Shown here piece by piece: positions 12,328 through 38,057 of a DNA stretch of 64,000 nucleotides. Source of the stretch: a virus; the IMG/VR virus record IMGVR_UViG_3300025012_000956, positions 1 through 64,000 of that record, one strand, 5' to 3'. A model generated the notes under the pieces. It had not been told where the DNA came from, searched no databases, and saw only the letters and a list, made by a program, of their open reading frames with translations. A program made the position numbers and the translations under genes. Every line of letters starts with the position of its first letter. The stretch's first letter is position 1.

Positions 12328-12651
12328 TCTGGTTCCTCAACAGAGTTTATTTCAGGAGAACAAATTGCAGAAGATTACAGTAAAATAATGACAGGAGATT
12401 TTATATTTTCTATTTCACGTAAAATAGAGGATGCAATGCATAAAACTGCTAGAATTTTTATAATAAAAAACAGATTTGGAGTTGATAAAATAATATGTCC
12501 TGCAAAATTTGATGTTTCAAATGGAAATTCTGTAATTCATGATCCATCATCTTTACTAGGCAAAGAAACTAAAGGTCAGATGAATAAAGATGATAATATA
12601 AAGAGTTTAATAAGAGAAAGATTGTTTTCTGACAAAAAAAGAAAAAAATAA
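12190..12651 (+). CDS. 41: C-intein plus gp41-like helicase C-extein
   Basis: This encodes 153 residues. Residues 1-46 are the C-intein, ending FFANDIYVHN with +1 Ser. The extein of 107 residues begins SGSSTEFISGEQIAEDYSK and includes the C-terminal helicase segment (IMTGDFIFSISRK, then RIFIIKNRFGVDK). Start ATG 12190 lies inside the endonuclease gene. It is the last gene before the 266-bp regulatory-looking gap preceding nrdJ. Confidence 0.87.
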   Translation: MKHRLKKGDFIIDEIESIELVGDLPTIDIEVEKTHMFFANDIYVHNSGSSTEFISGEQIAEDYSKIMTGDFIFSISRKIEDAMHKTARIFIIKNRFGVDKIICPAKFDVSNGNSVIHDPSSLLGKETKGQMNKDDNIKSLIRERLFSDKKRKK

Positions 12652-12917: not shown

Positions 12918-14234
12918 ATGATAAAGTTTGAAGATGTAAAAAATATTACCAATGAAGAATATTTCAATGGAAATCAATTTTCTATTGATGCTTATAATAA
13001 AAAATATGCAGCCTATCCAGAAGAAACTTACGTAAAAGCCCTCAAACGAGTATGTGATTTTGTAGCATCTGTTGAGGCTACAGAAGAACTTAAAAAATAT
13101 TGGAGTGAAAAATGGTTCGATGAAATTTATAATGATTGGTGGCATCCTGCTGGGAGTATAATGCAAGGAGCAGGTTCTGGTAGAAAAATTTCATTATCTA
13201 ATTGTACTACAATTTCAATGGGTGTCCTAGATGATAATAAGGAATGGGATAATTTAGAATCTATAATAAAAAATACAGGTTATACATTAGCAAAAGCTGC
13301 TGCATATCGTCAAGGATCAGGAATCGATGGTTCACGACTTCGTCCAGAAGGATCCTCAGTTTTAAATTCTGCTAATACTAGTACTGGAGTATTACACTGG
13401 CTACAGTGGTTAGATAGTATGGCATATTGTGTAGGGCAAAACGGACGCAGGCCGGCAATGCTTTTCTCATTATCTTGTTCCCACCCAGATATAGAAAAAT
13501 TTATAACTGTTAAATCTGATTACACTACAATTCAAAATGCTAACATTAGCGTTCAAATTACAAATAAATTTTACGAAGCAGCAGAAAAGAATGAAGATTG
13601 GGAATTATATTTTAAGGTATCTAAAACTAAAAAAGGTGACAAAATATATTTGGATATACATTCTATAGACATAGATTGTTTATGGGATAAAGAAGTTAAG
13701 TCTTGGTATAGAATTGCCACGCACGATAAAAAAGAACAGGTTATAAGAAAAACGGTTAATGCTAGAAAGCTTTTAGAATTGATTGCCGAAAATATGAGTA
13801 ACAATGCAGAACCAGGAATTCAAAATATTGACATAGCCAGAGAGTACTCAAACTCAGACGTTTTTTATGATCCAGAAAATAAAGAATTCGATCCTAGAAT
13901 TATTTCTACAAATGCCTGTTGTGTAGTAGAAGAAACGAAGGTGATGACTGACAAGGGATGGTTAACGATGGAACAGATTTATGATACAATGATTAATAAA
14001 AAAGAAACATTATTAGGAATGAGCTATAATATTAAAGAAAAATTATATGAGTTTAAACCTATATCAAATGTATATCAACATAGAAATGATGTTACTGTTA
14101 ATTTAGAAATAGAAGAAGAAGGAAAAATTTATAGAATAGAGTGCTCATCTGATCATCCTATATTAACAGAGAATAGAGGATTTGTAAAAGCTATTAGTTT
14201 GTCTAAAGATGATAACATAGTAATTTATAAATAA
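12918..14234 (+). CDS. nrdJ: class II ribonucleotide reductase N-extein plus N-intein
   Basis: This encodes 438 residues. Residues 1-334 are the NrdJ start: GAGSGRKISLSNCTT, YRQGSGIDGSRLRP, then IISTNAC. Residues 335-438 are an N-intein starting CVVEETKVMTDKG with block B-like CSSDHPILTENRG, then a stop. NrdJ reduces ribonucleotides using adenosylcobalamin and needs no separate radical subunit; none is seen here. The insertion point NAC/SE equals that of the NrdJ-1 split intein. The reductase is completed at 15308-17014 (865 extein residues). Confidence 0.88.
   Translation: MIKFEDVKNITNEEYFNGNQFSIDAYNKKYAAYPEETYVKALKRVCDFVASVEATEELKKYWSEKWFDEIYNDWWHPAGSIMQGAGSGRKISLSNCTTISMGVLDDNKEWDNLESIIKNTGYTLAKAAAYRQGSGIDGSRLRPEGSSVLNSANTSTGVLHWLQWLDSMAYCVGQNGRRPAMLFSLSCSHPDIEKFITVKSDYTTIQNANISVQITNKFYEAAEKNEDWELYFKVSKTKKGDKIYLDIHSIDIDCLWDKEVKSWYRIATHDKKEQVIRKTVNARKLLELIAENMSNNAEPGIQNIDIAREYSNSDVFYDPENKEFDPRIISTNACCVVEETKVMTDKGWLTMEQIYDTMINKKETLLGMSYNIKEKLYEFKPISNVYQHRNDVTVNLEIEEEGKIYRIECSSDHPILTENRGFVKAISLSKDDNIVIYK
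13920..14231 (+). other. NrdJ split intein, N-part (104 aa)
   Basis: Begins at the second Cys of NACC (TGT 13920) and ends just before TAA 14232-14234. Canonical split position. The preceding extein Cys belongs to the conserved NAC motif of the reductase. Confidence 0.85.
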
Positions 14235-14256
14235 AATACTGTTCATTTATTATAGA

Positions 14257-14291
14257 CTTCTATATTTATAATAAACAATACTTAATAGGAG
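14257..14291 (+). promoter_or_regulatory. RBS-masking hairpin with AT-rich promoter-like loop
   Basis: CTTCTAT (14257-14263) can pair with ATAGGAG (14285-14291) through seven base pairs including one G-U. The 21-base loop completes the AT-rich element CTATATTTATAATA. The masked GGAG is the ribosome binding site of the endonuclease starting at 14299. T4 I-TevI is controlled by a comparable hairpin with a late promoter inside it. Confidence 0.5.
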
Positions 14292-14298
14292 ATTTATT

Positions 14299-15315
14299 AT
14301 GAATAATTGTATAAGGATGAAAGGTAGAATAAAAAGAGGAAACTATAGTTTAGGAAGAGGATATAGTGGTTGGTATACCACTAAATATAATAAAAATGTG
14401 TTCTTACGATCTTTACAAGAATTTGTTTTCGCTAAAGAATTAGATTTTAATAAAATTCCTTTCTTAACAGAACAAACAATATTTAGGATTAACAAAGAAA
14501 ATTATAAACCAGATTTTTTTATATATTCAGATAATATATTTAAAAACTTGATAAAAATAATAGAGTTAAAAAACTCTGAAGATGATTTTAAAAGATATTT
14601 AGATTATATTCCGTATTTTAAGAATATAAACGTAGAGTATGAATTAATAACAGGAAAGGATTTAAGAAAAAATTATATATTCTGTTCAGTTGATGATATG
14701 AATGTGTGGAGGCAGAGTAGTATAAATTCAAGTATCATACTTTCTGGTATACATAATCCAATGTATGGAATGCACCATACAGAAGAAACAAAGAACAAAA
14801 TAGGAAATAAAACTAGAGAATATATGAAGGACCCCACCACAAAAAGAAAACATTCAGAAAATATAAAGGCATTTTGGAATAGTAGTAAATCAGATCATGT
14901 AAAGAAAAAATATAGAAAATTAAGAAAGATAGAAAAAATAAAAAGATTAGAATTAAAAAACATATTAGATCCTATTATAAATTGTAATTGTATTATATGT
15001 GAATCAAAGTTTAAAAAAAGAAAATCATCTAAGAGATTAACATGTTCTGGAAGTTGTGAACAAAAATATACATGGAGAATAGGTAAAAGAAAGTATGTCG
15101 ATTATGCGGATATTGCAAAAAAAACATATAGAAAACGAATACTGGGTTATATGAAAATAATGAATGAAGATATAAATTTGAATAGTATGAGTACGTTGAT
15201 AGATAAGTATAAAAATAATAAATTAATTCCAAATACCTTTGGGTTGAATATTAATATTATTAATAAATATTTTGGAAACTTGGACAATCTGAAACTGGAG
15301 ATAAATAATGGGTAA
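14299..15315 (+). CDS. PD-(D/E)XK homing endonuclease in the nrdJ intein
   Basis: This encodes 338 residues. The catalytic part is N-terminal: FLRSLQEFVF (Glu 41), KPDFFIYSDN (PD at 71-72) and KIIELKN (E89, K91). A NUMOD3-type DNA-binding segment follows (GIHNPMYGMHHTEETKNKIG), then a four-Cys element (CNCIICESK... CSGSCE) and a C-terminal helical region. It shares the nuclease type with the uvsX and gene 44 copies but not with the Vsr-like one in gene 41. Overlaps the C-intein gene by 8 bases. Confidence 0.78.
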   Translation: MNNCIRMKGRIKRGNYSLGRGYSGWYTTKYNKNVFLRSLQEFVFAKELDFNKIPFLTEQTIFRINKENYKPDFFIYSDNIFKNLIKIIELKNSEDDFKRYLDYIPYFKNINVEYELITGKDLRKNYIFCSVDDMNVWRQSSINSSIILSGIHNPMYGMHHTEETKNKIGNKTREYMKDPTTKRKHSENIKAFWNSSKSDHVKKKYRKLRKIEKIKRLELKNILDPIINCNCIICESKFKKRKSSKRLTCSGSCEQKYTWRIGKRKYVDYADIAKKTYRKRILGYMKIMNEDINLNSMSTLIDKYKNNKLIPNTFGLNINIINKYFGNLDNLKLEINNG

Positions 15316-15418
15316 ACTATTATCTATAGAAATATGTGATAAAATAAAAAGGTTATATGATATAGAGATCAAAGACAATAATAATTTTATTGTTAATGAT
15401 GGAATAGTCATACACAAT
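15308..15418 (+). other. NrdJ split intein, C-part (37 aa)
   Basis: Holds block F (LYDIEIKDNNNFIVNDG) and block G (IVIHN), with +1 Ser at 15419. Total intein is 141 residues. Confidence 0.85.
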
Positions 15419-17014
15419 TCTGAACAATACCTAAACCGAGACGGAGGATGTTTCTTAGCGTCAATAAATATGGAGAAATTCGAAACAAATTCATCAACAT
15501 ATAGACCTCAGTTAATTTTAATAGGAGAATCTATAAATAGATTTTTAGATAATGTTGTTTCATGTGAATTGGTTTATCATACTTATGCAACTCCTCATCA
15601 AAGACTTTCAAATGAAATGCTAAGAAGAACAGGTGCAGGGGTTACAAATATCGGTGGGTGGTTATTTAAATTAAATTTGGAATACGGAAGTAAGATAGCA
15701 AATGAAAAAGTAGAGGAATTTTTAGATGTTTATAATTTTAGCTTATACTTATCTACTGTTAATTTAGGTAAGGAAAAAGGAAATTTTAAATTATTTGATA
15801 AAGAAAAAATACTTAAATCTAAATTTATAAAACAACTTATTAAGAGATGGCCAGAATTAACATTTAATACTATGAGAAATGTTACTGTTTCCACCATAGC
15901 TCCATGTGGCACTCTAAGTCTTATGTTCAGACATATGGGTATGGGTTATGGAGTCGAGCCATCATTTGGAATATATTATTGGAAGAGAACAAGAATAAGT
16001 GGTAAATATGAATATTATTTCATAGTTCCTTATATTGTGAGAGAAGCATTTGACACAGCAGGAATTCCTATTCCAATGAAATCAGACACTATTAAAGATA
16101 CGTGGGATGGAAAATATGGTATACCAATAGCACAATTCATAGATGAAAATAAATCTAAATTAGACATACATTTTAAATCTGCAACTGAAATAAATCCATT
16201 AAATAAATTAGATTTAATGATTAGAGCAATGAAGTCAGTTGATTCTTCTATCTCAGTAACATACATGTTACCGGAGAGTAGCAACCCTAAAGATGTATAT
16301 GAGTTTATATTAAAAGCACATGAAGGTGGAGTAAAATCTATTGCTGCATTTCCTGATAGAAAAATGTATGGGATTATTTCTTATGTTCCATTTAAAGAAT
16401 TAGCGAATAAATTATTATCAGAAAATACCATTATAACACCACAGAACTTTACTGAAGGGGAATTGCAAGAATTGAACATGTCATTAGATTTTATTAAAGC
16501 TAGTTCAGCTCCGAAGAGGCTTAAAAAATTACCAGCAGATATTTATAATATTACAGTTAAAACTGAAAAATTTATTGTTGCTATTGGTTTATTAAATGGA
16601 GCCCCATATGAAATTTTTTGCGGTAAAATGAATGGATTAAATTTTAAATTTGTTCATAAGAAAGGTATAATTGAAAAGGTTAAACGCGGTCAATATAAAT
16701 TAGATATAGGTGAAGATATTTCAGTAGAAGATTTCTCCGGATATTTTAAACCTGTAGAAGCAGAATTGTTTAGGATGGTTTCTACTGCGCTTAGACACGG
16801 CGTACCCATTAGATTTTTGGTAGAACAATTAAGTAAATCTGCAGAAGATTTACAATCATTAACAATTGCAGCTGCTCGCGTATTGAAGAAATATATAAAG
16901 GCAGGAGAAGTAACTGGAATTCAATGTCCTCAGTGTTGTTCTTCTGTTATATATGACGAAACAGGGTGTACTACATGTACAAACTTACAATGTGGATGGG
17001 CTAAATGTTTTTAA
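15308..17014 (+). CDS. nrdJ: C-intein plus class II ribonucleotide reductase C-extein
   Basis: This encodes 568 residues. Residues 1-37 are the C-intein ending VNDGIVIHN, with +1 Ser. The extein starts SEQYLNRDGGCFLASINM. It contains STIAPCGTLSLMF and SSISVTYMLPESS of the alpha/beta barrel, and ends in a Cys-rich tail (QCPQCC, then CTTCTNLQCGWAKCF) typical of NrdJ, which passes electrons to the active site. ATG 15308 lies within the endonuclease gene. Confidence 0.88.
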   Translation: MGKLLSIEICDKIKRLYDIEIKDNNNFIVNDGIVIHNSEQYLNRDGGCFLASINMEKFETNSSTYRPQLILIGESINRFLDNVVSCELVYHTYATPHQRLSNEMLRRTGAGVTNIGGWLFKLNLEYGSKIANEKVEEFLDVYNFSLYLSTVNLGKEKGNFKLFDKEKILKSKFIKQLIKRWPELTFNTMRNVTVSTIAPCGTLSLMFRHMGMGYGVEPSFGIYYWKRTRISGKYEYYFIVPYIVREAFDTAGIPIPMKSDTIKDTWDGKYGIPIAQFIDENKSKLDIHFKSATEINPLNKLDLMIRAMKSVDSSISVTYMLPESSNPKDVYEFILKAHEGGVKSIAAFPDRKMYGIISYVPFKELANKLLSENTIITPQNFTEGELQELNMSLDFIKASSAPKRLKKLPADIYNITVKTEKFIVAIGLLNGAPYEIFCGKMNGLNFKFVHKKGIIEKVKRGQYKLDIGEDISVEDFSGYFKPVEAELFRMVSTALRHGVPIRFLVEQLSKSAEDLQSLTIAAARVLKKYIKAGEVTGIQCPQCCSSVIYDETGCTTCTNLQCGWAKCF

Positions 17015-24226: not shown

Positions 24227-24853
24227 ATGGAATTAAAAATTAATAGTCTGTTCGCAGAAAAATATAGACCTAATAATTTAGATGAATTTGTGGGTAATAA
24301 ACCCATTATAGATAAATTTAAATTATATATAAAAGAAAAGGATATACCTCATTTATTATTGGTTGGCCCACAGGGATGTGGAAAAACTTCCATCTCAAAA
24401 ATATTAGCAAAGACTATATCTCCAGATGACTATTTATATATAAATGCTTCTGATGAAAATAATATTGAAACCGTTAGAAACAAAATTAAAAATTTTGCTA
24501 TCTCTATTTCTATGAATAGTACAATAAAAATAATTATATTGGATGAATGTTTAGATGAGAATACTCCAGTTTCTGTTCTTAGATGCGGTAAAGAAGTTTT
24601 AATAAAAATTAAGGATTTAGATGATTCTGGAGATTTAGTGAAGTCTTTTAATATTAAGAAAAATAGAATAGAATATATGCCTTTTAATTTAATTGATAAA
24701 GGCATCAGCGATGATTGTTTAGAAATAGAATTAGAAACCGGTGAAATTGTTATATGTTCAAAAACACATGGATGGTATATTGAAAATGAGACCGGCGAAA
24801 TTATAATGGTTAAAGCATCTAATTTGAACAAACACATGCACATTATGACATAA
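24227..24853 (+). CDS. 44: clamp loader large subunit N-extein plus N-intein
   Basis: This encodes 208 residues. The AAA+ clamp loader begins LFAEKYRPNNLDEFVGN, with Walker A LLVGPQGCGKTS, and breaks inside Walker B at IIILDE. Residues 108-208 are the N-intein, starting CLDENTPVSVLRCGKE with block B-like VICSKTHGWYI, then a stop. The remaining 206 extein residues are at 26362-27105, total 313 (T4 gp44: 319). The loader opens the clamp using ATP and needs trans-splicing to regain Walker B. Confidence 0.87.
   Translation: MELKINSLFAEKYRPNNLDEFVGNKPIIDKFKLYIKEKDIPHLLLVGPQGCGKTSISKILAKTISPDDYLYINASDENNIETVRNKIKNFAISISMNSTIKIIILDECLDENTPVSVLRCGKEVLIKIKDLDDSGDLVKSFNIKKNRIEYMPFNLIDKGISDDCLEIELETGEIVICSKTHGWYIENETGEIIMVKASNLNKHMHIMT
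24548..24850 (+). other. gp44 split intein, N-part (101 aa)
   Basis: Begins at Cys1 (TGT 24548) after LDE of Walker B and ends before TAA 24851-24853. Canonical split position. Confidence 0.84.
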
Positions 24854-24881
24854 TTTTATACAAAGTGTGATTTTTCTAGAT

Positions 24882-24916
24882 CATACCTATATATATAATT
24901 AAGAAACCTATTGGAG
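24882..24916 (+). promoter_or_regulatory. AT-rich promoter-like element and RBS of the gene 44 endonuclease
   Basis: ACCTATATATATAATT (24884-24899) is a variant of the shared AT-rich element, followed by TTGGAG (24911-24916) about 7 bases before GTG 24923. No strong masking hairpin is apparent at this copy. Confidence 0.4.
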
Positions 24917-24922
24917 AAAGAT

Positions 24923-26365
24923 GTGTTTGTAAAAATATTAGGAAAAAAAATTGAATCAAATAGAAGTATAACAAATTTATTAAGAAATAAATTTAAAACT
25001 GTTGAAGTTGCATACTTATTGGAGCACGGTATGGATGCACCAAAGTGCAAATATTGTGGATTTAAGTGTATGTTTATTAGTTTTTTTAAAGGATATTTGG
25101 ATAGATGTAATTCAAATGAGTGTATACATAGAAGCGTTGTTGATTCCAATAAAATGTTGGGAAAGAAACGTGTTTTGAACAAGTTGAATAAGGACAGTGA
25201 TTTTTATAAATATATCATACAAAATTCAAATTTTTATATAAACAATTTTAAAAAGATAAATATAATAGAACCCTTTACAGGGATACGTACTGGAAAGCTA
25301 ACTCTACGATCCTTTTTACGAAGACGTATTTCTAAAGAATGTTTTTACACATATAAAGATTGTATATATTGTAATTCATCATTCTTAACAGATATTTTTA
25401 TTAATAGAAAATATTGTCATAATTCTAAATGTGTTGAAAAAGCACGTAGAAAATACATTATAAGTTCTAAACAGTTTACTCCTCAAGAGATAAACAATCT
25501 ATATCAGGTTTTTAGAATAGATGGAATATCTCATGTGGATGCGATGACTAAGATAAGAACCGAATATACATCGGACTATGTGTTAATTAATAAAATTTAC
25601 AAATATTATGACGATTACTCAATACTAAAAATTAAATACTTAACATGTCCAGTTACCGGGTTTATTATACCACTTAGATCAAGATCAAACATTTTAAAAA
25701 AACACTGCTTTATTCATAATATAGATATCAATTCATATATAGAAAAGTATTTTCCGAATTTCATCAGTAGGTGTTTATTATGTGCCGACTTTTCAGAAGT
25801 GAAATCAGATCTTATTAAAGAAACACATAAAAAGTTTTGTAACAGGGATCATTATTTACAATACAAAAAAATTAACCCCGATAAATATAGGTGTAGTGAT
25901 GATCAAAAGAATAAACAATCTAAAATAATTAAAAACTTAATTTTAAGTGGTAAATTTACTCCTAAGACTCAAAATAGGTTTACTCACTTTGAGCAAAAAA
26001 TAGTAATTAATAATATAGAGTATAAGTTTAGGAGTTCTTGGGAAGCTGCATTTTTTGTATCTAACAATATAAATTATGAAAAATCGTATGAGAAGTTGAG
26101 AATTTTATATCGTGATAAGCTTGGTAAATCCCACATATATATTTCTGATTTTTATTTACCAAACACTAATACATTATATGAATTAAAACCAAGAAATTTA
26201 TATAAAATACAAAAATATAAAATGAATGAGGTAATTAAATATTGTAAGACTAATAACATCAAATTTATATGGATTAATGAAGATAATTTATTAAATTTCT
26301 TAAACATTGAAATAGTAAAAAATTATCCAACTATTTTCGATAAGATTAAAGGAATAATAAAGTGA
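24923..26365 (+). CDS. PD-(D/E)XK homing endonuclease in the gene 44 intein
   Basis: This encodes 480 residues from GTG 24923, chosen for the GGAG spacing; TTG 24911 is also in frame. It has several two-Cys or four-Cys zinc-like units (KCKYCGFKC; DCIYCNSS with CHNSKC; SRCLLC). The C-terminal nuclease core has FRSSWEAAFFV, then ISDFYLPNTNTLYELKPRN (D, then E-x-K), as in the uvsX and nrdJ copies. The long Cys-rich N-terminal region is unlike those copies. Overlaps the C-intein start by 4 bases. Confidence 0.74.
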   Translation: MFVKILGKKIESNRSITNLLRNKFKTVEVAYLLEHGMDAPKCKYCGFKCMFISFFKGYLDRCNSNECIHRSVVDSNKMLGKKRVLNKLNKDSDFYKYIIQNSNFYINNFKKINIIEPFTGIRTGKLTLRSFLRRRISKECFYTYKDCIYCNSSFLTDIFINRKYCHNSKCVEKARRKYIISSKQFTPQEINNLYQVFRIDGISHVDAMTKIRTEYTSDYVLINKIYKYYDDYSILKIKYLTCPVTGFIIPLRSRSNILKKHCFIHNIDINSYIEKYFPNFISRCLLCADFSEVKSDLIKETHKKFCNRDHYLQYKKINPDKYRCSDDQKNKQSKIIKNLILSGKFTPKTQNRFTHFEQKIVINNIEYKFRSSWEAAFFVSNNINYEKSYEKLRILYRDKLGKSHIYISDFYLPNTNTLYELKPRNLYKIQKYKMNEVIKYCKTNNIKFIWINEDNLLNFLNIEIVKNYPTIFDKIKGIIK

Positions 26366-26484
26366 ATAAAATAAAAATAAAATCAATAAAAAATTACACA
26401 CAGCCCACTCACCTATATGATTTGCATGTATCATCGAATCATAATTTTTTTATCGGCGAAATGGGTACAATTCTCACTCACAAC
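26362..26484 (+). other. gp44 split intein, C-part (41 aa)
   Basis: Block F (LYDLHVSSNHNFFIGE) and block G (TILTHN), with +1 Cys at 26485. The total is 142 residues. Confidence 0.84.
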
Positions 26485-27105
26485 TGTGACTATATGACTC
26501 CTAATGCCCAGGCAGCGTTGAGAAATTTAATGGAAACTTATAGTAGACATACTAGATTTATCTTAACTGCTAATTATTATAATAGAATCTATGAACCTAT
26601 AATTTCTAGGTGTACAGTTTTTGAAATGGGACAAATGCCAAAACCGGATATGGCAAACAGAGTTGCAAACATTTTAGATATAGAAAAGGTAATATATAAA
26701 CCTGAGGATGTGGTTTTATTGATAAACTCTTTTTATCCGGATATGAGACAAATATTAAATGTAACCCAAAGATCAATTACAAATTGGAAACTTGAGGTAA
26801 ATAGTAATGAGATATTAGAATCAGATTATAGGTTGAAAATAATAGATATACTAAAAGATAAAAAGTTATTAAGTGAAACTAAATTTGCGAATATTAGAAA
26901 ATTAATAGCAAATCATCAGATAAAACAATTCACAGATGTGTATAGAATAATGTATGAAAATATAGATGATATTGCAAAAAATGTTTCAGATGTAATCTTA
27001 ATAATTGCAGAACAACAATATCAAGAATCATTTGTGATAGATAAGGAGATCTCCTTTATTGCATGTGTCGTGCGTATATTAAATAGTAATGATATGGAAA
27101 GATAA
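26362..27105 (+). CDS. 44: C-intein plus clamp loader large subunit C-extein
   Basis: This encodes 247 residues from GTG 26362. Residues 1-41 are the C-intein ending GEMGTILTHN. The extein begins CDYMTPNAQAALRNLME, completing Walker B (LDE/CDYMT). It continues RFILTANYYNRIYEPIISRC (sensor 1 and SRC Arg-finger motif) and the C-terminal collar domain. +1 residue is Cys, the only such case among the five inteins. Confidence 0.87.
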   Translation: MNKIKIKSIKNYTQPTHLYDLHVSSNHNFFIGEMGTILTHNCDYMTPNAQAALRNLMETYSRHTRFILTANYYNRIYEPIISRCTVFEMGQMPKPDMANRVANILDIEKVIYKPEDVVLLINSFYPDMRQILNVTQRSITNWKLEVNSNEILESDYRLKIIDILKDKKLLSETKFANIRKLIANHQIKQFTDVYRIMYENIDDIAKNVSDVILIIAEQQYQESFVIDKEISFIACVVRILNSNDMER

Positions 27106-29007: not shown

Positions 29008-29535
29008 ATGGGAAACAATTTATTTTTTACAAAGGTTAGAGATGTAAAATCACCTACACGTGGAACACCAGGCAGTGCCGGCATCGATTTCTATGTCCCA
29101 AAGTTTACTGAAAGTTTTATAACGGATCTTGTTAATAAAAATCCAGGTTATTATCACAGGCCAACTATTAATGGAATTGTTATGCATCCTCATGATAGAA
29201 TTTTAATTCCATCTGGAATTTGCGTTAGCATACCCCATGGGTATACTTTAATAGGTCACAATAAAAGTGGGGTAGCAAGTAAAAAAGGATTGGATATATT
29301 AGCAAGCGTTATTGACGAAGACTATCAATCTGAAATTCATTTAAATGTAGTAAATACGGGATTAACAATTCAGGATATACTTGAAGATGATAAGTTGCTT
29401 CAGTATATTTTAATTCCAGTTGTAATATCGGAAATATTGGAAATTCCTACATTGGAGGAATTATATCCTGTAAAAACAGATCGTGGAGTCGGTGGGTTTG
29501 GTTCGACGGATGAAAGAGATGAAAGAATTGTTTAA
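29008..29535 (+). CDS. dut: trimeric dUTPase
   Basis: This encodes 175 residues. It hydrolyses dUTP to dUMP and pyrophosphate. The five motifs are visible: SAGIDFYVP (1), NKSGVASKKG (2), VIDEDYQSEIHL (3), LQYILIPV (4) and RGVGGFGSTD (5). Extra segments lie between motifs 1-2 and 4-5 compared with the usual 150 residues. It opens the nucleotide and DNA-modification block, with an AGAGGAAAG ribosome binding site. Confidence 0.88.
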   Translation: MGNNLFFTKVRDVKSPTRGTPGSAGIDFYVPKFTESFITDLVNKNPGYYHRPTINGIVMHPHDRILIPSGICVSIPHGYTLIGHNKSGVASKKGLDILASVIDEDYQSEIHLNVVNTGLTIQDILEDDKLLQYILIPVVISEILEIPTLEELYPVKTDRGVGGFGSTDERDERIV

Positions 29536-30707
29536 TGAGATGGGCAACTATCATACCGTTAATAGGTGGACAATCAATAGGAACATACCAATTTCTAAAG
29601 GAGGAACCAGAGGTTATTGCTTCCTTTAGACAATTTAAAAATAACGAAAGGTATTTAAAGCAGTATTGGCCATCATTTAATTATAAGATACTTGACAAAA
29701 CTAATATTAATTTGAAATTAAAGAATATCGATTTTATAAATACTTTGTGTCCATGTGCAGGGTTATCAGAATTAAATAGTGGGAAAGACTCAGAGTTAGC
29801 TCGTGGAGTCGAAGCATTACAAAACAATTGGATGTATTTAACTGCAGAATATGTTCTGCAAAATGTTAAACCCAAGGTGTTTTATGGTGAGAATACAGAT
29901 AACTTATTTTCAGGCAAAATAGGATCAGAGATATCTGATAGGTTATATAAAATTGCTGTAGATAATGGTTATTCATTTTCGATGTTAAGAACAGATGCGA
30001 GATTTCACGGGCTTCCTCAGAAAAGAATTCGTACATTTTATTTTTTCTGGAATTCTAAACGAGCTCCTAGTATTCCTATTAATAGTTTAACCACCAATGA
30101 AGATTTAGGAATGTTTTTAGGAGAAGATTATTTAATAAATGAACAATTAAATAAGGCAACTGATAGATTAGTTAACAATATATATTATAAATATGTTATA
30201 AAAGAATTTGGTCAAGATTATAGATCTTTATATTCAGGAATTCCATTGACACTGATGGAGTTGATTGTTAAAAACAATAAGCTACTAGATTTTGAAATAT
30301 TTGTCAAAGATATTATGGACCAAAAAGTTTTATTGAAAATAGAAAAACATAAAAATAAGTTAGGTTATTGGGATGACTCACCAATAATAGTAAAAGATTA
30401 TACAAACTCGGCGACAAGTAGAAATATAAATACAATCCACCCTACAGAAGAAAGAATTTTAACCTTAGGTGAATGGATAAAAATTATGGGAATGCCACCA
30501 CAATTTCTAACATATTTATCAGATAGAAGAACTTCATACTTACACTTATTTCAAAATGTTCCAGTAGATGTTGCTAGAGATGTTGCTAGATATGTCGTAC
30601 AGTTTATAAATGGGGATTTAAGTTTTGCTAATACTGATTATGTTAAGCAAGACTGGGTTACCACAAAATTTGAAGATATAGGTAAATTTAAACATTCGTT
30701 TTTTTAA
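29535..30707 (+). CDS. C5-cytosine DNA methyltransferase-like protein
   Basis: This encodes 390 residues. Motif IV is CPCAGLSE (Pro-Cys), motif VI GENTDNL, motif VIII GLPQKRIRTFYF. The region LTLGEWIKIMGMP and the closing NVPVDVARDVARYV match motifs IX-X. Motif I (IPLIGGQSIGTYQF) departs from the usual FxGxG. The family transfers methyl to cytosine C5. The catalytic Cys is present. Start overlaps the dUTPase stop. Confidence 0.75.
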   Translation: MRWATIIPLIGGQSIGTYQFLKEEPEVIASFRQFKNNERYLKQYWPSFNYKILDKTNINLKLKNIDFINTLCPCAGLSELNSGKDSELARGVEALQNNWMYLTAEYVLQNVKPKVFYGENTDNLFSGKIGSEISDRLYKIAVDNGYSFSMLRTDARFHGLPQKRIRTFYFFWNSKRAPSIPINSLTTNEDLGMFLGEDYLINEQLNKATDRLVNNIYYKYVIKEFGQDYRSLYSGIPLTLMELIVKNNKLLDFEIFVKDIMDQKVLLKIEKHKNKLGYWDDSPIIVKDYTNSATSRNINTIHPTEERILTLGEWIKIMGMPPQFLTYLSDRRTSYLHLFQNVPVDVARDVARYVVQFINGDLSFANTDYVKQDWVTTKFEDIGKFKHSFF

Positions 30708-30717
30708 GAGGTATAAT

Positions 30718-31269
30718 ATGGAACCAAAAGTAATTGTGCTTGAAGGTCCGGATTCCGGAGGTAAAAGTACCCAAGCAAAAATGTTATTAAAATATTTATT
30801 AGATAAACCAACCTATGTAATTCATTTTTCTAATATATCTGGAATCACTTCAGAGCAATCAAGAGAATATAGTTATAAGTTATATAATGATGCATTTGTA
30901 ATGATGCAAGAAGCATATTCTAATAACAGAAATTTAATATTTGACAGGTGTCATATCGGTGAGTATGTATATTCTCCAATATATAGAGATTATTCAGGAG
31001 ATTTTATATTTGAAATAGAGAATAAATTTAAAAATAAAAACTTTTTTAAAAACGTATATCTATTTTTATTTGAAGATTTAATAGAAAATCTTATAAAGAG
31101 AGATGATGGTCATTCATTTTCTACTGAACCGGATGTTAAGATTAGGGAATTAAAACTGTTTAAAGAAGCATTTGAAAAATCTCACATTCATCATAAGTTT
31201 ATAGTGAATATATTTAATTCTCCTAAAGAAGAGGTTAATGATTTTATTGTTAAAGCATTAGGAATTTAA
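30718..31269 (+). CDS. deoxynucleoside monophosphate kinase, thymidylate-kinase fold
   Basis: This encodes 183 residues. P-loop VLEGPDSGGKSTQA, DR-type motif NLIFDRCHIGEYVYSPIYR and a lid-like RDDGHSF segment. Thymidylate kinases are close in size and motifs. Given the neighbouring hydroxymethylase-like enzyme, the substrate may be hydroxymethyl-dCMP as for T4 gp1. That is inference. Confidence 0.72.
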   Translation: MEPKVIVLEGPDSGGKSTQAKMLLKYLLDKPTYVIHFSNISGITSEQSREYSYKLYNDAFVMMQEAYSNNRNLIFDRCHIGEYVYSPIYRDYSGDFIFEIENKFKNKNFFKNVYLFLFEDLIENLIKRDDGHSFSTEPDVKIRELKLFKEAFEKSHIHHKFIVNIFNSPKEEVNDFIVKALGI

Positions 31270-32027
31270 TGTTAGAAGAAACATTACTTCCTTTTATTAT
31301 ACCAACGTTCAATTTAAATGAACTTAAAGATGAATATTGGGAATTAATCGGTATACATAAATTTAAATATACATTACCTCAGAATTTTATAGATATGAGT
31401 GGTATAATGTTTCCCGGATTTAAATTTTCTAGTAAAGAAGCAGCTAAATTTTATGATGAAACTGTTTTAGACTTTGTAGTAAATGAATTAAAAGCATTTA
31501 CAACTCCTAGAGGGAATTTAAGTAAAGAAAATAATATAATAATGATAGGTCAAAGACCAGGTCATTTTGGTGCACATTTAAGTAAAGCAGAATCTGCTTG
31601 GTTGTTGGGTCCATCGAGTAAAATGTTGGTTAATTTATGTAAAGAATTAAAAATATATCCATATTTTACAAACTTTTATCATTCGCACTATGTAGATCCA
31701 GATAGAGCTTGGTATAATATCTATAAGGAATTAGTTGGTATATTTACTTTATACAAAAATTTTTATAATAAATCCGATTTTAGAATCGTTTTCTTAGGTA
31801 ACTATAGTGAATATGATGAATTGAAAATAGAGTTAGAAAAGCTTACAGACTTAAAATTACAATTTATTAAAATTTGGCATCCTGCATACTTGCTAAGAAA
31901 CAGTAATCCTAATTTATTTAGTCAGTGGGTAACTAGTTTAGGAAGACAGTTAGTAAAAGAAGAAATTCCAGGTTATTATTTAGACCATAAATTTAAAGGT
32001 AAATACAAATATGATAAAATTATCTGA
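31269..32027 (+). CDS. uracil-DNA-glycosylase-superfamily protein
   Basis: This encodes 252 residues. IGQRPGHFGAHLSK resembles the family 4 GxxPG active-site motif, and KIWHPAYLLR is close to the HPAYLLR leucine-loop motif of family 4 glycosylases. The Cys ligands of family 4 are not obvious. It could be a base-excision enzyme or a member with a changed role in modified-base metabolism. Confidence 0.6.
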   Translation: MLEETLLPFIIPTFNLNELKDEYWELIGIHKFKYTLPQNFIDMSGIMFPGFKFSSKEAAKFYDETVLDFVVNELKAFTTPRGNLSKENNIIMIGQRPGHFGAHLSKAESAWLLGPSSKMLVNLCKELKIYPYFTNFYHSHYVDPDRAWYNIYKELVGIFTLYKNFYNKSDFRIVFLGNYSEYDELKIELEKLTDLKLQFIKIWHPAYLLRNSNPNLFSQWVTSLGRQLVKEEIPGYYLDHKFKGKYKYDKII

Positions 32028-32625
32028 TATTATTAATTATTTAATTCAACAGAATAATTTTAATTCTTATTTAGAAATAGGAGTATCAACTGGAGTTTGT
32101 TTCGGTGCAGTAAATTGTAAATTTAAAGATGTCGTAGATCCTGTTAAACAAACGTCTGATGTTAATTATAATATGACGTCCGATGCGTTTTTCAAAGTGG
32201 TCGACCCTAATAAAAAATATGATGTAATATTAATTGATGGGTTGCACACCACAGAACAGGTATTAAAAGATTATAATCATTCATTATCTCACCTATCAGA
32301 AACTGGATATATTTTACTGGATGATACTTGTCCGTATGATGAATCTTGGGTAATCCCAGAAGGAAATCCTGGTGGCTGGTGTGGTACTATATATAAGTTT
32401 ATGATCGATCTTGCGTATAATAACTGTGATATTAATTATAATACGGTTTTTGTACCCCATGGACATACAATAATAACAAGAGGAAAACGAGAACCCTTGT
32501 ATCTTCAATATTCTGATGATTGGTCATTCTTTGATAGATATAGATCTGTTATATTAAACTTAATTTCAGAAGAAGATTTTTATATGATGTACATGAAAAA
32601 ACAAAATGAAACTAGCAGTTATTAA
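32011..32625 (+). CDS. class I SAM methyltransferase-like protein
   Basis: This encodes 204 residues. YLEIGVSTGVCFGAV is the SAM-binding motif I, KYDVILIDGLHTTEQVLKDY motif IV with an Asp-Gly-x-His typical of the Methyltransf_24 type, and GYILLDDTCPYD follows. Acceptor unknown. It overlaps the glycosylase-like gene by 17 bases and the glucosyltransferase gene by 20. Confidence 0.7.
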   Translation: MIKLSDIINYLIQQNNFNSYLEIGVSTGVCFGAVNCKFKDVVDPVKQTSDVNYNMTSDAFFKVVDPNKKYDVILIDGLHTTEQVLKDYNHSLSHLSETGYILLDDTCPYDESWVIPEGNPGGWCGTIYKFMIDLAYNNCDINYNTVFVPHGHTIITRGKREPLYLQYSDDWSFFDRYRSVILNLISEEDFYMMYMKKQNETSSY

Positions 32626-33727
32626 ATTTGGTGGCAGAATGAATGCCAATGCAGATGGTGCAGTTGGTGGTGAGGTAATGGCTGCGATTGATCTATTAGT
32701 TAGAGGTGACAATGAAGTACATTACTATACACATATTAATAATAAAGATGTTGCACTACCAGGTGCACACGGTCAGAATATAGAATATTTTGGCAATGAT
32801 ACTAGTTTTGATGCATTAATAGTAATAAATGGTAATATAAATTATTATGGTGGTGCTGAACCGGAACTCGAGATGAAAAATTTAAGATTGCTCAATTCTT
32901 TTCCGGGAAAAGTTTTCTATATAATGTTTGATCCTATGCTACCACTTCGACAACATTGGAAAGGTGTAAGTAATAAGCAAGAAAAATATAAGTGGAATAA
33001 TAAATATTCTAAAGAAGAAATAGAAATAGTTAGAGATGATATTATTTATATTTCACAGCCGTATGACCTAACAGCAGTTAGAGAAATGTTAGATGGTTTA
33101 GGAGTACCTTATAAGGATGTATTACACTATCCTTTATATAAAATGCATTTAGTATTTTATGATAGGTTACTTAAAATAAAATCGCCATCAGGAGAATATA
33201 GAACTGTAGATTTGACATACGGTGGTACTTTTAGAAATAAAAAACGAGAAGATAAACTTATAAAATTTTATTTTGGGTACCCATGTACTGTCAATGTTGA
33301 GATATTTGGTAAGATTAAGCTATCAGACTTCAATAAGAATAAGATAAAAGGACTGAGAGCACCTTTATTTACTGGACAAATTAAACATAATCTAGTTCGA
33401 CGGAAGATGTCTAGGGCATATGCCACTGTATCAATTGGCGATAAGTGGTATGAAGGTAGAAATCTAGCACAGCGAATTTATGAAAGTATATTATCAAATT
33501 GTATTACATTTATTGATGAAGAATTAGATCCTCAACACGTAGTATATGGAGAAGAATTGCCTAAATTTTATGTTAAAGATAGGGATCAGGTTCTTGAGCA
33601 ACTATTATTAATTAAAATATTTGAGGAAAAATTTGATGAAATACTTGATCAACAATATGATATAGTAAAGATAGATAAACAAGAATTTGTAAACGGATTA
33701 ACTAATCTCATAGGTAATAATTTATGA
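32606..33727 (+). CDS. bgt: DNA beta-glucosyltransferase homologue (T4 BGT-like)
   Basis: This encodes 373 residues (T4 BGT: 351). It would transfer glucose from UDP-glucose to hydroxymethylcytosine in DNA. Long similarity to T4 BGT as remembered: ALIVINGNINYYGG, FYIMFDPMLPLRQHW (Asp as D100), TYGGTFRNKKREDK (Arg pair as R191/R195), RAPLFTGQIKHNLV, SIGDKWYEG and TFIDEELDPQHV (Glu as E272). The catalytic and UDP-binding residues appear kept. Neighbours supply a possible sugar donor and modified base. Confidence 0.82.
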   Translation: MKLAVIKFGGRMNANADGAVGGEVMAAIDLLVRGDNEVHYYTHINNKDVALPGAHGQNIEYFGNDTSFDALIVINGNINYYGGAEPELEMKNLRLLNSFPGKVFYIMFDPMLPLRQHWKGVSNKQEKYKWNNKYSKEEIEIVRDDIIYISQPYDLTAVREMLDGLGVPYKDVLHYPLYKMHLVFYDRLLKIKSPSGEYRTVDLTYGGTFRNKKREDKLIKFYFGYPCTVNVEIFGKIKLSDFNKNKIKGLRAPLFTGQIKHNLVRRKMSRAYATVSIGDKWYEGRNLAQRIYESILSNCITFIDEELDPQHVVYGEELPKFYVKDRDQVLEQLLLIKIFEEKFDEILDQQYDIVKIDKQEFVNGLTNLIGNNL

Positions 33728-33775
33728 CAACGTTGGACTGGGAATTGGTAAAAGAAAAATAACAGATATAGAACT

Positions 33776-35587
33776 ATGATAAAAACAGATAAAATAAAAA
33801 TAGTAATATTTTCAGGTGGGCACGGTGCCTCTAATATTCTAGAAGGATTATATGCGTTAGATAAAACCGGAGAAGCACTTCAGATAACTCAAATTGTCAA
33901 TGGACTAGATGATGGGGCATCAGGTGGAATTGTAAGAAGAGTAATGAATGTACTGTGTCCTGGAGATTTAAGAAAAAATCAATTTAAACATTATTGCCTT
34001 ACTCATAAAGGAAACGTGAATATGGCGATTGTTGAATTTTGTGACAAGCGATATGATTTGACTCTTGGTTCTGAATTACATGATGTGTTAAAACTATTAG
34101 ATATTTGGGATTTTCCAGAAAAATTATTATTTAAAGAATTAGCAACTAAATTCTTTAGTGTAGCGAGTTCTTTTAAAGAAAAATTTAATTTCTTCGGAAT
34201 CAATATCTCAAATATTATATATGCATCTATGATTAATAGTATTGGATATGATGAAACGTTTAAGTATTTTAAGAAGTTCTTTGGGATAAAACATGACGTA
34301 ATGTTGATATCAGAAGATAATTTACAGTTGCGTGCGATCACTAAAGACTGGACACTAATAGAAACAGAAACTCCTGGAATAATAAAACATAATAATAAAG
34401 AAAATTATATTATGGATATATTATTTGAACGATTTAATCCTCTTAGTTCTAAATCTGAACATACGACTGCGTTAGCATCAAAGATAATAATATATTCTGA
34501 AGAAAAAATAAAAGACGCAGATTTAATTATATTTGCACCTGGTACTCAATGGAGTTCTTTAATTCCAACATATGCTACAGTTGGACTAGATGATGTATTG
34601 AAGAAATCTAAGGCTAAAAAGATTTTAATAATGAATAATGATGAAGATGGAGATTCAATAGGAAGAACTGCGGGTGATTTACTAAATAGTATATCAAAAT
34701 ATTTAACATTAGATAATATAAATATATTTATTAATAATCTTGCCAGTGAGCCACTTCAGAATATAGAAAATTTTAAAAATAAAAACAATATAACGATCTA
34801 TATTAAGGTATTAGGTCATGGTTTAGCTAGATCATCTAAAACTGTAGAAGAAATATTTAAGCTATATTATAATTTAACTAAACCTGATTTTATATTCTGT
34901 GATTTTGATGATACTATTTATTCTAGAGATCCAACACACAGTAAGATTTCAGAAGAAAATTTGATTTTATTGGATAAAATTTCTAAAAAAATTCCTACTA
35001 TTATTGTTTCAGGTAATGATTATGAAACTATTCACAGTAAACTAATTAAGAATTTTGGAAGTTCTGGTCTAAATAATATTAAATTTGATATCTGGGCAGA
35101 TGGTGGTTTAGTTAAATATGAACAGGGTATACCCGTTATAAGAACAGCACTTTTGGACAATACTAAAGAAACACTGTCTTATTTACAAGGCGACATACTG
35201 GGTTTACCTAAAGATAAAATATTTCTTAGAGGTGATTGGCCAAAACAAGATATAAAAAATATTACGTGTATAGGAATAAAACCTCTTACGGAATTAGAAA
35301 AAACGTTATTGATAAATATTTTAAATATATTTTTTAAAGAAAATCGCTTTTATAATGTTGCCAAAAGAATAGGTTTAACTGGTATAGATATTATATCTGT
35401 TAATAGTGACAAGAAAAAAGTTTTACATTATTATAATTCATCATATGGAAAAACTACATTGTACATAGGAGATGAATTGAGAGATGGAAATGATGAAAAT
35501 ATTTCTAGTGCATGTAATTTTAAATATAATGTTAAATCACCATATGACACAAATATACTGTTACAACTAATAAATGAGGAATTGTAA
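33776..35587 (+). CDS. CofD/YvcK-like domain fused to phosphomannomutase-like HAD domain
   Basis: This encodes 603 residues. The N-terminal part (about 1-360) has the CofD/YvcK pattern: IFSGGHGASNILEGL, NGLDDGASGGIVRR, CPGDLRKN, IFAPGTQWSSLIPT. The C-terminal part (about 370-603) is a HAD enzyme: FCDFDDTIYS (nucleophile Asp), TIIVSGNDYET, and IGDELRDGNDENI, which matches the GD...GND-x-x-I loop of eukaryote-type phosphomannomutases. YvcK is reported to bind UDP-GlcNAc; CofD makes phosphodiesters. The fusion suggests a sugar-phosphate role, next to a nucleotidyltransferase. Confidence 0.72.
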   Translation: MIKTDKIKIVIFSGGHGASNILEGLYALDKTGEALQITQIVNGLDDGASGGIVRRVMNVLCPGDLRKNQFKHYCLTHKGNVNMAIVEFCDKRYDLTLGSELHDVLKLLDIWDFPEKLLFKELATKFFSVASSFKEKFNFFGINISNIIYASMINSIGYDETFKYFKKFFGIKHDVMLISEDNLQLRAITKDWTLIETETPGIIKHNNKENYIMDILFERFNPLSSKSEHTTALASKIIIYSEEKIKDADLIIFAPGTQWSSLIPTYATVGLDDVLKKSKAKKILIMNNDEDGDSIGRTAGDLLNSISKYLTLDNINIFINNLASEPLQNIENFKNKNNITIYIKVLGHGLARSSKTVEEIFKLYYNLTKPDFIFCDFDDTIYSRDPTHSKISEENLILLDKISKKIPTIIVSGNDYETIHSKLIKNFGSSGLNNIKFDIWADGGLVKYEQGIPVIRTALLDNTKETLSYLQGDILGLPKDKIFLRGDWPKQDIKNITCIGIKPLTELEKTLLINILNIFFKENRFYNVAKRIGLTGIDIISVNSDKKKVLHYYNSSYGKTTLYIGDELRDGNDENISSACNFKYNVKSPYDTNILLQLINEEL

Positions 35588-36343
35588 ATGTTGGGCCTAA
35601 TTCTCTGTGCGGGTAAACAAACCAGATTTAATTCTGGAGTACCTAAGGCATTAATGCCTTATAATAAAGATAAAACTATTTTAGGTAAAAATATAGAAAC
35701 TATGATAGAATTCGTAAATGATATTATTTTAGTACTTAATAAAGATAATAATAATACTTTATATGAGGAATATGCTAATAATTTTGTTAGGATTATAGAA
35801 ATAGAATCAGGTCATGGAAGTGGAGATGCTATCCTTCAAATATTTAATCAGTTGAAGACTGTAGAAGAAATATTCGCAGACATTTTTTTAATCTGGGGTG
35901 ATTCTATACAAGACAGTACTGCTCTATATAGAACTACATTAAATAATTATAATGATTATTGCACGGTTCCTATTAGATTAGAAAATGAACCCTATACTCA
36001 TTTTGTATGTGATCATGATAATATTATCAAGTCAGTGGAATTTAAAAACAGAGGTGCTAAATATATTCAAGGTTACCATGATTTTTCTCTATTTTTATTT
36101 AATTTAGTTAAAATGAATGTTATTTTAGATTCTTATAATTTAATGAAATGGTTACCGGAGAATAATAAATATGATACAATAAATGGTGAATTTGAATTTT
36201 TAGATATATTTAACCAATTTAATTATCTAGAATTTGCAAAAGCTGTTATAATTGATAATATAAAATCTAACAATGCATTCAATACAATGGAAGAATATTT
36301 GAAATTAATTAATGGGGTTACAGATGAGAATAGTAAGCAATAA
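35588..36343 (+). CDS. sugar-phosphate nucleotidyltransferase
   Basis: This encodes 251 residues. LILCAGKQTRFNSGVPKALMPYN is the GxGTR...PK signature of NTP-sugar transferases in slightly changed form. IFLIWGDSIQ gives the metal-binding Asp, and the ESGHGSGDAIL loop would contact the base. It would join a sugar 1-phosphate to an NTP. It follows the mutase-like fusion with no gap and precedes the hydroxymethylase-like gene, fitting a donor-sugar pathway. Confidence 0.75.
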   Translation: MLGLILCAGKQTRFNSGVPKALMPYNKDKTILGKNIETMIEFVNDIILVLNKDNNNTLYEEYANNFVRIIEIESGHGSGDAILQIFNQLKTVEEIFADIFLIWGDSIQDSTALYRTTLNNYNDYCTVPIRLENEPYTHFVCDHDNIIKSVEFKNRGAKYIQGYHDFSLFLFNLVKMNVILDSYNLMKWLPENNKYDTINGEFEFLDIFNQFNYLEFAKAVIIDNIKSNNAFNTMEEYLKLINGVTDENSKQ

Positions 36344-37226
36344 TTTTGCAGAAATATATAAAGATCTATTAACAACAATATATTATAATCCAGATCATAT
36401 TATTTCTCCACGAGAATACCAGACAAAAGAGTGTTGTAATGTTGAATTAGTTTTAACAGATCCAACTTCAAACTTATTTACAAATAAAATTAGAAGTCCT
36501 AAGTTAAATTATTTATATCCTGAATTGTTATACTATTTTTTAGGTAGAAATGATTTAGAATTTATTTCTAAATATTCTACTTTCTGGAATAAAATAGCAA
36601 ATAATGATAGAACTGTAAATAGTGCATATGGATATCTTTTATTTAGAGAGAGGAATATACATGGCTGGACAGAATATCAATGGGCATTTAATTCACTTAT
36701 TGTAGATAAAAATTCTAGGCAAGCTATTTTAAGATTTAATAAACCAGAACACTCATATTTAGATAATAAGGATTTTGTGTGTACATTGAATGGTATATTT
36801 CATATCAGAAAAAATAAAGAATTAAACTGTGATGTATTAAATTTTACAACAACAATGAGATCACAAGATGTTTGGTTTGGAATTATATATGATATTCCTT
36901 TTTATACTTTGTTGCAGCAACAAATGTTAAATCATTTAAAACAAGAAAAATATCCTGATTTACAGCTTGGTAAATATACTCATTATATATTAAGTGAACA
37001 TATATATAAAAAAGATTTTGAAAATATAGAAAAAATGCTAAATGAAGAATTTATATCGGACAGTACTCCGTTACTAGTTAAAAATTTAATAGAACCCAGT
37101 GGTAATCCAACGCAAGAATTATATTTAATATTACAAACAGTAGAAAATAATAATGAGTATACAGATTTTGGAGATGAACTAATAAATAAAATAGTAAAAT
37201 TTTCTTTAAGGGAAAACAATGAATAA
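36324..37226 (+). CDS. thymidylate-synthase-fold enzyme, probable dCMP hydroxymethylase
   Basis: This encodes 300 residues from ATG 36324, chosen for the GGGG six bases upstream; 36312 also possible. Fold motifs: NSAYGYLLF (99-107), SRQAILRF (131-138), catalytic Cys in DFVCTLNGIFHIR (C153), MRSQDVWFGIIYDIPFY. The Asn of thymidylate synthase that reads dUMP (GLPFNIA) is Asp here (GIIYDIP, D190), as in T4 gp42. That change favours dCMP. Reaction expected: dCMP to 5-hydroxymethyl-dCMP. Six extra residues lie between Cys and Asp. Confidence 0.7.
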   Translation: MRIVSNNFAEIYKDLLTTIYYNPDHIISPREYQTKECCNVELVLTDPTSNLFTNKIRSPKLNYLYPELLYYFLGRNDLEFISKYSTFWNKIANNDRTVNSAYGYLLFRERNIHGWTEYQWAFNSLIVDKNSRQAILRFNKPEHSYLDNKDFVCTLNGIFHIRKNKELNCDVLNFTTTMRSQDVWFGIIYDIPFYTLLQQQMLNHLKQEKYPDLQLGKYTHYILSEHIYKKDFENIEKMLNEEFISDSTPLLVKNLIEPSGNPTQELYLILQTVENNNEYTDFGDELINKIVKFSLRENNE

Positions 37227-37683
37227 ACAACAGAGATTAGATAAAATATTTATTAATATTGCACTGGAATTTGCAACATTATCTCATTGTGTTACTTATA
37301 AAGTGGGCGCAGTTGCAGTTAATGATAATAGGATTATTGCTACAGGAATTAATGGTACTCCAGAAGGAATGTTAAACTGCGATCGAGTATTTAAAAATTA
37401 TAATTCTGAGACAGATAGAGAAGAACACCATATGTGGAGTGAAATACATGAGCTCCACGCTGAATTAAATGTTATACTTTTTTGTGCAAAAAACGGAATT
37501 TCATTAAAAGGAACAACAGTTTATTCTACTGTTCAACCATGTCAACAGTGTCTGAAAAATATGTTGCAATGTGGTATAGTAAGAATAGTTTATAAATACC
37601 CATATGACAAAGCAGTTGAAAGTAAACTTATAAAAGAATATATGAAAGAAAAAAATATAATAATAGAACAAATAGAGGAGTAA
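37219..37683 (+). CDS. cd: dCMP deaminase
   Basis: This encodes 154 residues. Zinc motifs ELHAELNVI (His-Ala-Glu) and STVQPCQQCLKNML (PCxxC) mark the cytidine/dCMP deaminase family. It converts dCMP to dUMP. Together with dUTPase it supplies the dUMP pool, so it competes with the hydroxymethylase-like enzyme for dCMP. Overlaps the preceding gene by 8 bases. Confidence 0.87.
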   Translation: MNKQQRLDKIFINIALEFATLSHCVTYKVGAVAVNDNRIIATGINGTPEGMLNCDRVFKNYNSETDREEHHMWSEIHELHAELNVILFCAKNGISLKGTTVYSTVQPCQQCLKNMLQCGIVRIVYKYPYDKAVESKLIKEYMKEKNIIIEQIEE

Positions 37684-37685
37684 AT

Positions 37686-38057
37686 ATGAAAACAGATATA
37701 AAATTATCTAATGAAGATTTAATATTAACGACTGAGATGGAGAAAAAATATCCCAAAATGACAGCTGAGTTTAGAAATATATGTGCAGAACAATATTTAA
37801 TGTTTTTAAAAAAACAGCATGATTATGGTCCCTCAAATATTGCAATAAACACACAACTAGAAACAGACGAGGATATCAAAAATTCATTGATTGGAATTAC
37901 TGTTAGATGTAGTGATAAGGTAAGTAGATTGGTTAATTTAATATTAAAGAGAAAAGATGAGAAACCAAAAAACGAATCGATTGTAGACACTTTTGTTGAT
38001 ATGAGTATTTATTCTAAAATTGCAATGATTGTCCTAAGAGGAAAATGGGCAAAATGA
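37686..38057 (+). CDS. Nmad1/DUF1599-like nucleotide-modification-associated protein
   Basis: This encodes 123 residues. KKQHDYGPSNIA, ITVRCSDKVSRLVNLIL and ESIVDTFVDMSIYSKIA match the DUF1599 family (nucleotide modification associated domain 1), a helical domain named for its frequent place beside modified-base genes in phages. This supports the view that the surrounding genes make a modified nucleotide. Biochemical role unknown. Confidence 0.72.
   Translation: MKTDIKLSNEDLILTTEMEKKYPKMTAEFRNICAEQYLMFLKKQHDYGPSNIAINTQLETDEDIKNSLIGITVRCSDKVSRLVNLILKRKDEKPKNESIVDTFVDMSIYSKIAMIVLRGKWAK

Follow-up and report, generated by a model that had tools for sequence, protein, structure and literature searches.

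A candidate viral cassette for making a UDP-sugar and placing it on 5-hydroxymethylcytosine in DNA

To our knowledge, DNA glycosyltransferases come in two types, the T4-type beta-glucosyltransferase (BGT) and the TET-associated glycosyltransferase (TAGT). Phage T4 draws the UDP-glucose for its BGT from the host and has no donor-making genes, and T4-like loci likewise lack the gene cassette described here, which lies in a 64,000-nucleotide stretch of viral DNA (the window; positions 1-64,000 of IMG/VR record IMGVR_UViG_3300025012_000956, itself a 74.5-kb fragment) and encodes, in order, a BGT homologue, a fusion of a CofD/YvcK(GlmR)-like domain to a phosphomannomutase (PMM)-type domain (CofD-PMM), a sugar-1-phosphate nucleotidyltransferase (NTPtr) and a dCMP hydroxymethylase. 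We think it very likely that this cassette is a DNA-hypermodification set, which would supply a UDP-sugar for BGT to attach to 5-hydroxymethylcytosine. RB69 (arabinose) and Shewanella phage Thanatos (pentose) are already known to make donors for their DNA sugars, with other gene sets (PMC6024577, PMC12838424), such that the principle of a phage supplying its own donor, raised for this locus by an initial annotation, is not new. In RB69-type phages a related thymidylate-synthase homologue yields 5-hydroxy-dCMP, which is then glycosylated, and in T-even phages BGT and TAGT substitute for each other at one position, with T6 likely adding a second glucose by TAGT (PMC13390438).

Cassette parts travel with DNA glycosyltransferases

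Gene identities were assigned by Pfam, PHROG and profile searches, and folds by AlphaFold2 models and Foldseek. The four cassette open reading frames (ORFs) are all intact, on the plus strand and nearly contiguous in the window's ORF list (Table 1), and the identities and order given by the initial annotation are each backed by family, profile or structure matches. Window BGT matched Pfam T4-Gluco-transf (6.6e-14) and PHROG beta-glucosyltransferase (9.9e-53), and a four-relative profile matched T4 BGT over its full length (residues 1-333, 2.6e-49); in T4 numbering, E22, D100, R191, R195, D258, Y261 and R269 were kept in 30/30 cassette BGTs and E272 in 29/30, with D100 being catalytic and Tyr261, Arg269 and Glu272 being residues of the UDP site. 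The 603-aa fusion begins with a Pfam CofD match (7.6e-27), yet its N-terminal domain matched CofD at 8e-5 against the value for YvcK structures in Table 1, and reached 15 bits with the curated F420 cofD model, whose cut-off is 257; on these scores, the N-terminal half is more probably a YvcK/GlmR-type protein than an F420 CofD. A 21-sequence profile of the C-terminal third found phosphomannomutases first (the top PDB matches were PMMs), the PMM motifs DxDxT and GDE..GND are near invariant in the fusion alignment, and the AlphaFold2 model of the fusion (pLDDT 90.6, pTM 0.90) is nearest, among solved folds, to YvcK (TM 0.80) and PMM2 (TM about 0.6). The NTPtr matched Pfam NTP_transf_3 (5.6e-8) and, at family level, GlmU (2e-17), and its model (pLDDT 91.3) lies nearest to GlmU/RmlA by Foldseek. 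The fourth product has a thymidylate-synthase fold (Pfam, 3.9e-16), and its best solved relatives are (d)CMP hydroxymethylases (4e-30 and 3e-22).

Single-sequence scans gave few relatives, and profile scans were required. The first IMG/VR profile scan, with CofD-PMM, returned 23 loci. With near-copies removed, and with the window and LR756500 (an uncultured phage of 462 kb that has the same genes inside 9 kb in a different order) included, distinct viral records with the fusion number 20; BGT was present in 17/20, and NTPtr almost always adjoined the fusion. The reverse profile scan, from BGT, revealed 79 viral loci, 39 of which had CofD-PMM within 6 kb and always on the same strand. Across these 39 cassette loci, NTPtr was present in 38 (directly downstream of CofD-PMM in 37), BGT lay directly upstream of CofD-PMM in 19 and no more than about 1.5 kb away in the others, and a hydroxymethylase was present in the flank of 28 loci and a dNMP kinase in that of 29. 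Recurrence of the gene set, whose order the initial annotation had proposed to seek elsewhere, is supported, and its presence in many viral contigs unrelated to one another is more than chance would give. The 40 loci with no CofD-PMM in the flank include L134, closely related to LR756500 and with a more distant CofD; T4-like BGT loci had no cassette, and 14 cassette-less records that were searched whole had none elsewhere. All cassette members are metagenomic contigs, no cultured phage carries it, the carriers are large or huge uncultured phages, and among 50,697 phage records the cassette occurred in one metagenomic genome only. Listeria and Staphylococcus 'phage' matches, which covered the YvcK half only, at 24%, and stood on unannotated contigs, were discounted as probably being yvcK of the host.

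Three records (G004, G008 and G012) carry the cassette and no BGT, and TAGT is present in 3/3 of these against 0/30 of the searched cassette records with BGT, a split with a chance probability of 1 in 5456 for independent records; as some of them are related, it is to be read as strong rather than exact. TAGT lies just upstream of the cassette in locus L012 and about 2 kb upstream of it in L016, whereas in L021 it is found at another place in the record, and because it replaces BGT in these records the cassette follows DNA glycosylation and not one enzyme. In L068 the domains are cut otherwise, into BGT, CofD alone (338 aa), PMM-NTPtr (444 aa) and dNMP kinase-hydroxymethylase (438 aa). These alternative fusions argue that the parts act as consecutive steps, and give good evidence for one predicted pathway in which PMM and NTPtr would serve the sugar, and kinase and hydroxymethylase the base.

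Table 1. Cassette genes and neighbouring features, in window coordinates.
Feature	Coordinates	Strand	Basis
dUTPase (accessory)	29008..29535	+	Pfam dUTPase 8.2e-13; PHROG 1.6e-29
dNMP (thymidylate-kinase-like) kinase, probable hydroxymethyl-dCMP kinase	30718..31269	+	PHROG thymidylate kinase 4e-18
Methyltransf_24 family methyltransferase	32011..32625	+	Pfam 5.3e-9
T4-BGT-type DNA glycosyltransferase (BGT), 373 aa	32606..33727	+	Pfam, PHROG, profile match
CofD/YvcK(GlmR)-like domain of fusion, residues 1-371	33776..34888	+	YvcK structures 1.1e-32
PMM-type HAD domain of fusion, residues 372-603	34889..35587	+	PMM structures 1.4e-16
GlmU-N/MobA-like sugar-1-phosphate nucleotidyltransferase (NTPtr), 251 aa	35588..36343	+	NTP_transf_3, GlmU, Foldseek
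dCMP hydroxymethylase, thymidylate-synthase fold, 304 aa	36312..37226	+	Pfam, structure matches, residue alignment
dCMP deaminase	37219..37683	+	Pfam 3.5e-20; PHROG 1.6e-47
Candidate nucleotide-modification-associated domain 1 (Nmad1, DUF1599) protein	37686..38057	+	19.7 bits against cut-off 25 (sub-threshold)

Proposed pathway and competing explanations

In the pathway that we favour, the hydroxymethylase would convert dCMP to 5-hydroxymethyl-dCMP, which would be raised to the triphosphate by the dNMP kinase together with a kinase of the host and built into DNA. The PMM-type HAD domain would act on a sugar-6(or 7)-phosphate to give the sugar-1-phosphate, from which the GlmU-like NTPtr, with or aided by the YvcK/GlmR-like domain, would make the UDP-sugar, and BGT would transfer this sugar onto the hydroxymethyl groups of the DNA. 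Each reaction, UTP as the nucleotide and protection from restriction as the purpose would follow from family knowledge, and GlmU homology together with the intact UDP site of BGT points to a UDP-sugar as the donor. The route of the initial annotation, in which a hexose phosphate passes through hexose-1-phosphate to an NDP-sugar, dCMP becomes hydroxymethyl-dCMP and the sugar is then transferred to DNA, is supported by part identities, co-occurrence and fusions; its description as self-contained is not established, as the window shows no hexokinase or isomerase and the last phosphorylation, to the triphosphate, would fall to a kinase of the host. SIS_2 had no match in the window's 74.5-kb record, and because that record is only a fragment, genes not seen in it (isomerase, dCTPase, nucleases) mean little.

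The division of labour between the CofD-like domain and NTPtr is the least certain step of the model. GlmR/YvcK of Listeria, B. subtilis and S. aureus converts UTP and GlcNAc-1-P into UDP-GlcNAc, with activity down about 100-fold in an Asp40/Asp41/Asn198 triple mutant (PMC10128056), and the B. subtilis protein has been proposed as a sensor of product (PMC7525490). In the alignment to YvcK structures, these residues (Listeria numbering) align with window D45/D46/N287, with D45 and N287 being invariant and position 46 being Asp or Asn. Given this activity and the aligned residues, the CofD-like half could be the uridyltransferase itself, or a product sensor.

Several observations weigh against the favoured pathway. 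Two nucleotidyltransferase-like domains for a single step need explaining, and L003 lacks NTPtr with the remainder of its cassette kept. The TAGT-type cassette records have no recognised hydroxymethylase, and a search for TET matched 0/11 records, although it matched nowhere and is uninformative. A C5-cytosine DNA methyltransferase in the window (29535-30707, 1.2e-18), two genes from the cytosine-hydroxymethylating pathway, is odd for a phage replacing all its cytosine.

To evaluate the base, 68 thymidylate-synthase homologues, taken from cassette and cassette-less BGT loci alike, were aligned with a ThyA reference sequence, revealing Asp (window Asp194) at the E. coli ThyA Asn177 position in 68/68, the catalytic Cys146 in 68/68, Asp169 in 68/68 and Trp80 in nearly all. 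ThyA Trp80, Asp169 and Gly173 hold folate. The window enzyme keeps all three in an alignment including T4 gp42 and RB69, whereas RB69 ORF048 has Asn for Asp169 and has lost Gly173 and Trp80, and these retained folate residues make a product carrying hydroxymethyl much more likely than one carrying hydroxy. A 5-hydroxycytosine base, for which the RB69-type phages and their thymidylate-synthase homologue offer a precedent (PMC13390438), is accordingly very improbable, the window enzyme also being closest to (d)CMP hydroxymethylases and its partner being BGT, which acts on hydroxymethyl groups. Most improbable is that CofD-PMM and NTPtr serve phage surface or virion glycans (window 40-63 kb) and sit beside BGT by chance: the window does have a large glycan cluster downstream, and bacterial relatives do sit in polysaccharide loci, but BGT or TAGT accompanies the cassette in 20/20 distinct viral records, which strongly disfavours this role. 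Those relatives include CofD, HAD and NTPtr triads (L008, L039-L041) in or near surface-polysaccharide genes, in which PMM is replaced by an HAD of the beta-phosphoglucomutase type, another mutase/phosphatase family, and BGT was not found in the genomes that carry them.

The sugar is less clear. It is a tentative but considerable possibility that the cassette merely tops up UDP-glucose because hosts are short of it or have none (Glc-6-P to Glc-1-P to UDP-Glc), the product being T4-like glucosyl-5-hydroxymethylcytosine; the PMM-family structure matches include an alpha-phosphoglucomutase (4bnd), RmlA/GlmU-type folds accept Glc-1-P, and the T4 BGT residues are conserved as given above. Set against this are a GmhA-like gene in L004 and T4 BGT position 18, four residues from the catalytic Glu22, which is Gly (27) or Ala (3) in 30/30 cassette BGTs and mostly Val/Ile/Leu/Thr/Ser, with Gly in 0, in non-cassette BGTs; of the lineages without the cassette that fall inside the cassette clade, two have Val and one has Ala. 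With 2-4 independent changes only, statistical significance is out of reach, and position 18 may be taken as a lead on the donor sugar and no test. The L004 gene, a GmhA-like SIS isomerase inside the cassette between BGT and CofD-PMM, also bears on a heptose donor (sedoheptulose-7-P to heptose-7-P by GmhA, then to the 1-phosphate and NDP-heptose, with BGT transfer to DNA), as do a similar isomerase upstream of NTPtr/CofD-PMM in a Dysosmobacter operon (L007) and a weak NTPtr match to a 6-deoxy-mannoheptose pathway nucleotidyltransferase (5e-9). We consider heptose unlikely given that SIS_2 was above cut-off in only 1/21 viral records searched (L004), that the GmhA scores of the isomerases fall far under the equivalog cut-off, such that their substrate is unsure, and that NTPtr matches GlmU better.

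Position 18 and the L004 gene hint away from glucose, and BGT and PMM homology allow it. We lean modestly towards a sugar other than glucose, with glucose itself falling somewhat short of an even chance, and the initial annotation's naming of glucose is not established. More specifically, and tentatively, virion DNA may carry an unseen base, 5-hydroxymethylcytosine with a non-glucose, non-arabinose sugar (such as a heptose, or a hexose then O-methylated) from a UDP-sugar made by the fusion and NTPtr. Six large-phage loci (L102, L104, L105, L108, L111 and L114; contigs 150-343 kb) have BGT and kinases while the cassette has seemingly been lost; residue 18 of their BGT is Val, and they represent a natural control for donor specificity.

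Genomic neighbourhood

Among the nearby genes of the initial annotation, dUTPase, dNMP kinase and dCMP deaminase were confirmed by Pfam or PHROG, while Nmad1 stayed below threshold (Table 1). The Methyltransf_24 ORF shares 20 bp with the BGT start and is possibly a sugar O-methyltransferase, and several relatives have other methyltransferases (Methyltransf_23) between BGT and CofD-PMM. Judged by eye, a C5-methyltransferase-like ORF (3789-5000) lies beside the TAGT-type cassette of L021. A uracil-DNA-glycosylase-superfamily-like protein is encoded at window 31269-32027 (Pfam 0.0026, below cut-off) and beside BGT in relatives (L025 7405-7944 and, by eye, L089 4860-5570, L102 7379-7861 and L108 7340-7819), and may edit unmodified bases or process modified ones. 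A guanylate-kinase-like gene near NTPtr, CofD-PMM or BGT (L005 20190-20879, L019 10681-11367, L020 10704-11363, L027 10658-11266, L102 7891-8568) was rejected as a cassette part, since cassette-less loci also have it after BGT, and is possibly another modified-dNMP kinase.

Further downstream, window 40098-63156 is a large glycan cluster with GT1/GT2/GT10-type glycosyltransferases, a Gfo/Idh oxidoreductase, a hexapeptide transferase, methyltransferases, an HldE-like cytidylyltransferase (48180), a GalE/HldD-like epimerase (50303) and two DegT aminotransferases (54096, 62080). Its first glycosyltransferase (40098), which has a homologue on the downstream side of the L004 cassette, might attach a second sugar. 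By eye, several ORFs in the ORF list (7275-8579, 12190-12651, 15308-17014, 26362-27105) resemble fragments of inteins or homing endonucleases that would interrupt replication genes, those for a clamp loader (24227-27105) and ribonucleotide reductase (12918-17014).

Comparison with known systems

Our literature search, which covered few subscription papers, found no account of this gene set, in agreement with the initial annotation, nor any work linking CofD or heptose to phage DNA modification; the cassette would give a role to the YvcK/CofD fold that the literature searched does not link to DNA modification. Cultured phages give a narrow view of viral DNA decoration, and many wild phages may bear an unexamined one. 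Which type IV restriction enzymes and which DNA-glycosylase defences are able to recognise these phages depends on the sugar that is attached. A new pairing of BGT and donor would also provide a tool for labelling 5-hydroxymethylcytosine.

The T4 system of gp42 and beta-glucosyltransferase has a homologous BGT and hydroxymethylase, near each other on the genome and with the same catalytic residues. TAGT systems connect through L012, L016 and L021, where TAGT stands in for BGT with the same cassette, while the window uses BGT. GlmR/YvcK, a UDP-GlcNAc-binding uridyltransferase, shares its fold and proposed catalytic residues with the fusion's N-terminal domain, whereas the phage domain is fused to PMM and tied to DNA glycosyltransferases. 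The RB69/Mosigvirus arabinosyl-cytosine and Thanatos pentose modules resemble the window in that phage genes for sugar activation have as neighbours a thymidylate-synthase-fold enzyme and a thymidylate kinase. The RB69 module consists, however, of an NTPtr fused or adjacent to an APH-like kinase, and a KdsD-like isomerase, whereas the window has YvcK/CofD-PMM, a GlmU-like NTPtr and a T4-type BGT, and RB69 ORF052 and ORF055 had no window match at E <= 0.01. Relatives of both module types stand side by side in the bacterial operon L007, which carries matches to ORF052 (5e-27) and ORF055 (2.5e-22) and comes from the one Dysosmobacter genome with full-length CofD-PMM, a fusion rare in bacteria (at E 1e-60, 0 others/394 genomes of its order). 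Beside these modules, the cassette would represent a second, non-homologous route to a phage-made DNA-sugar donor.

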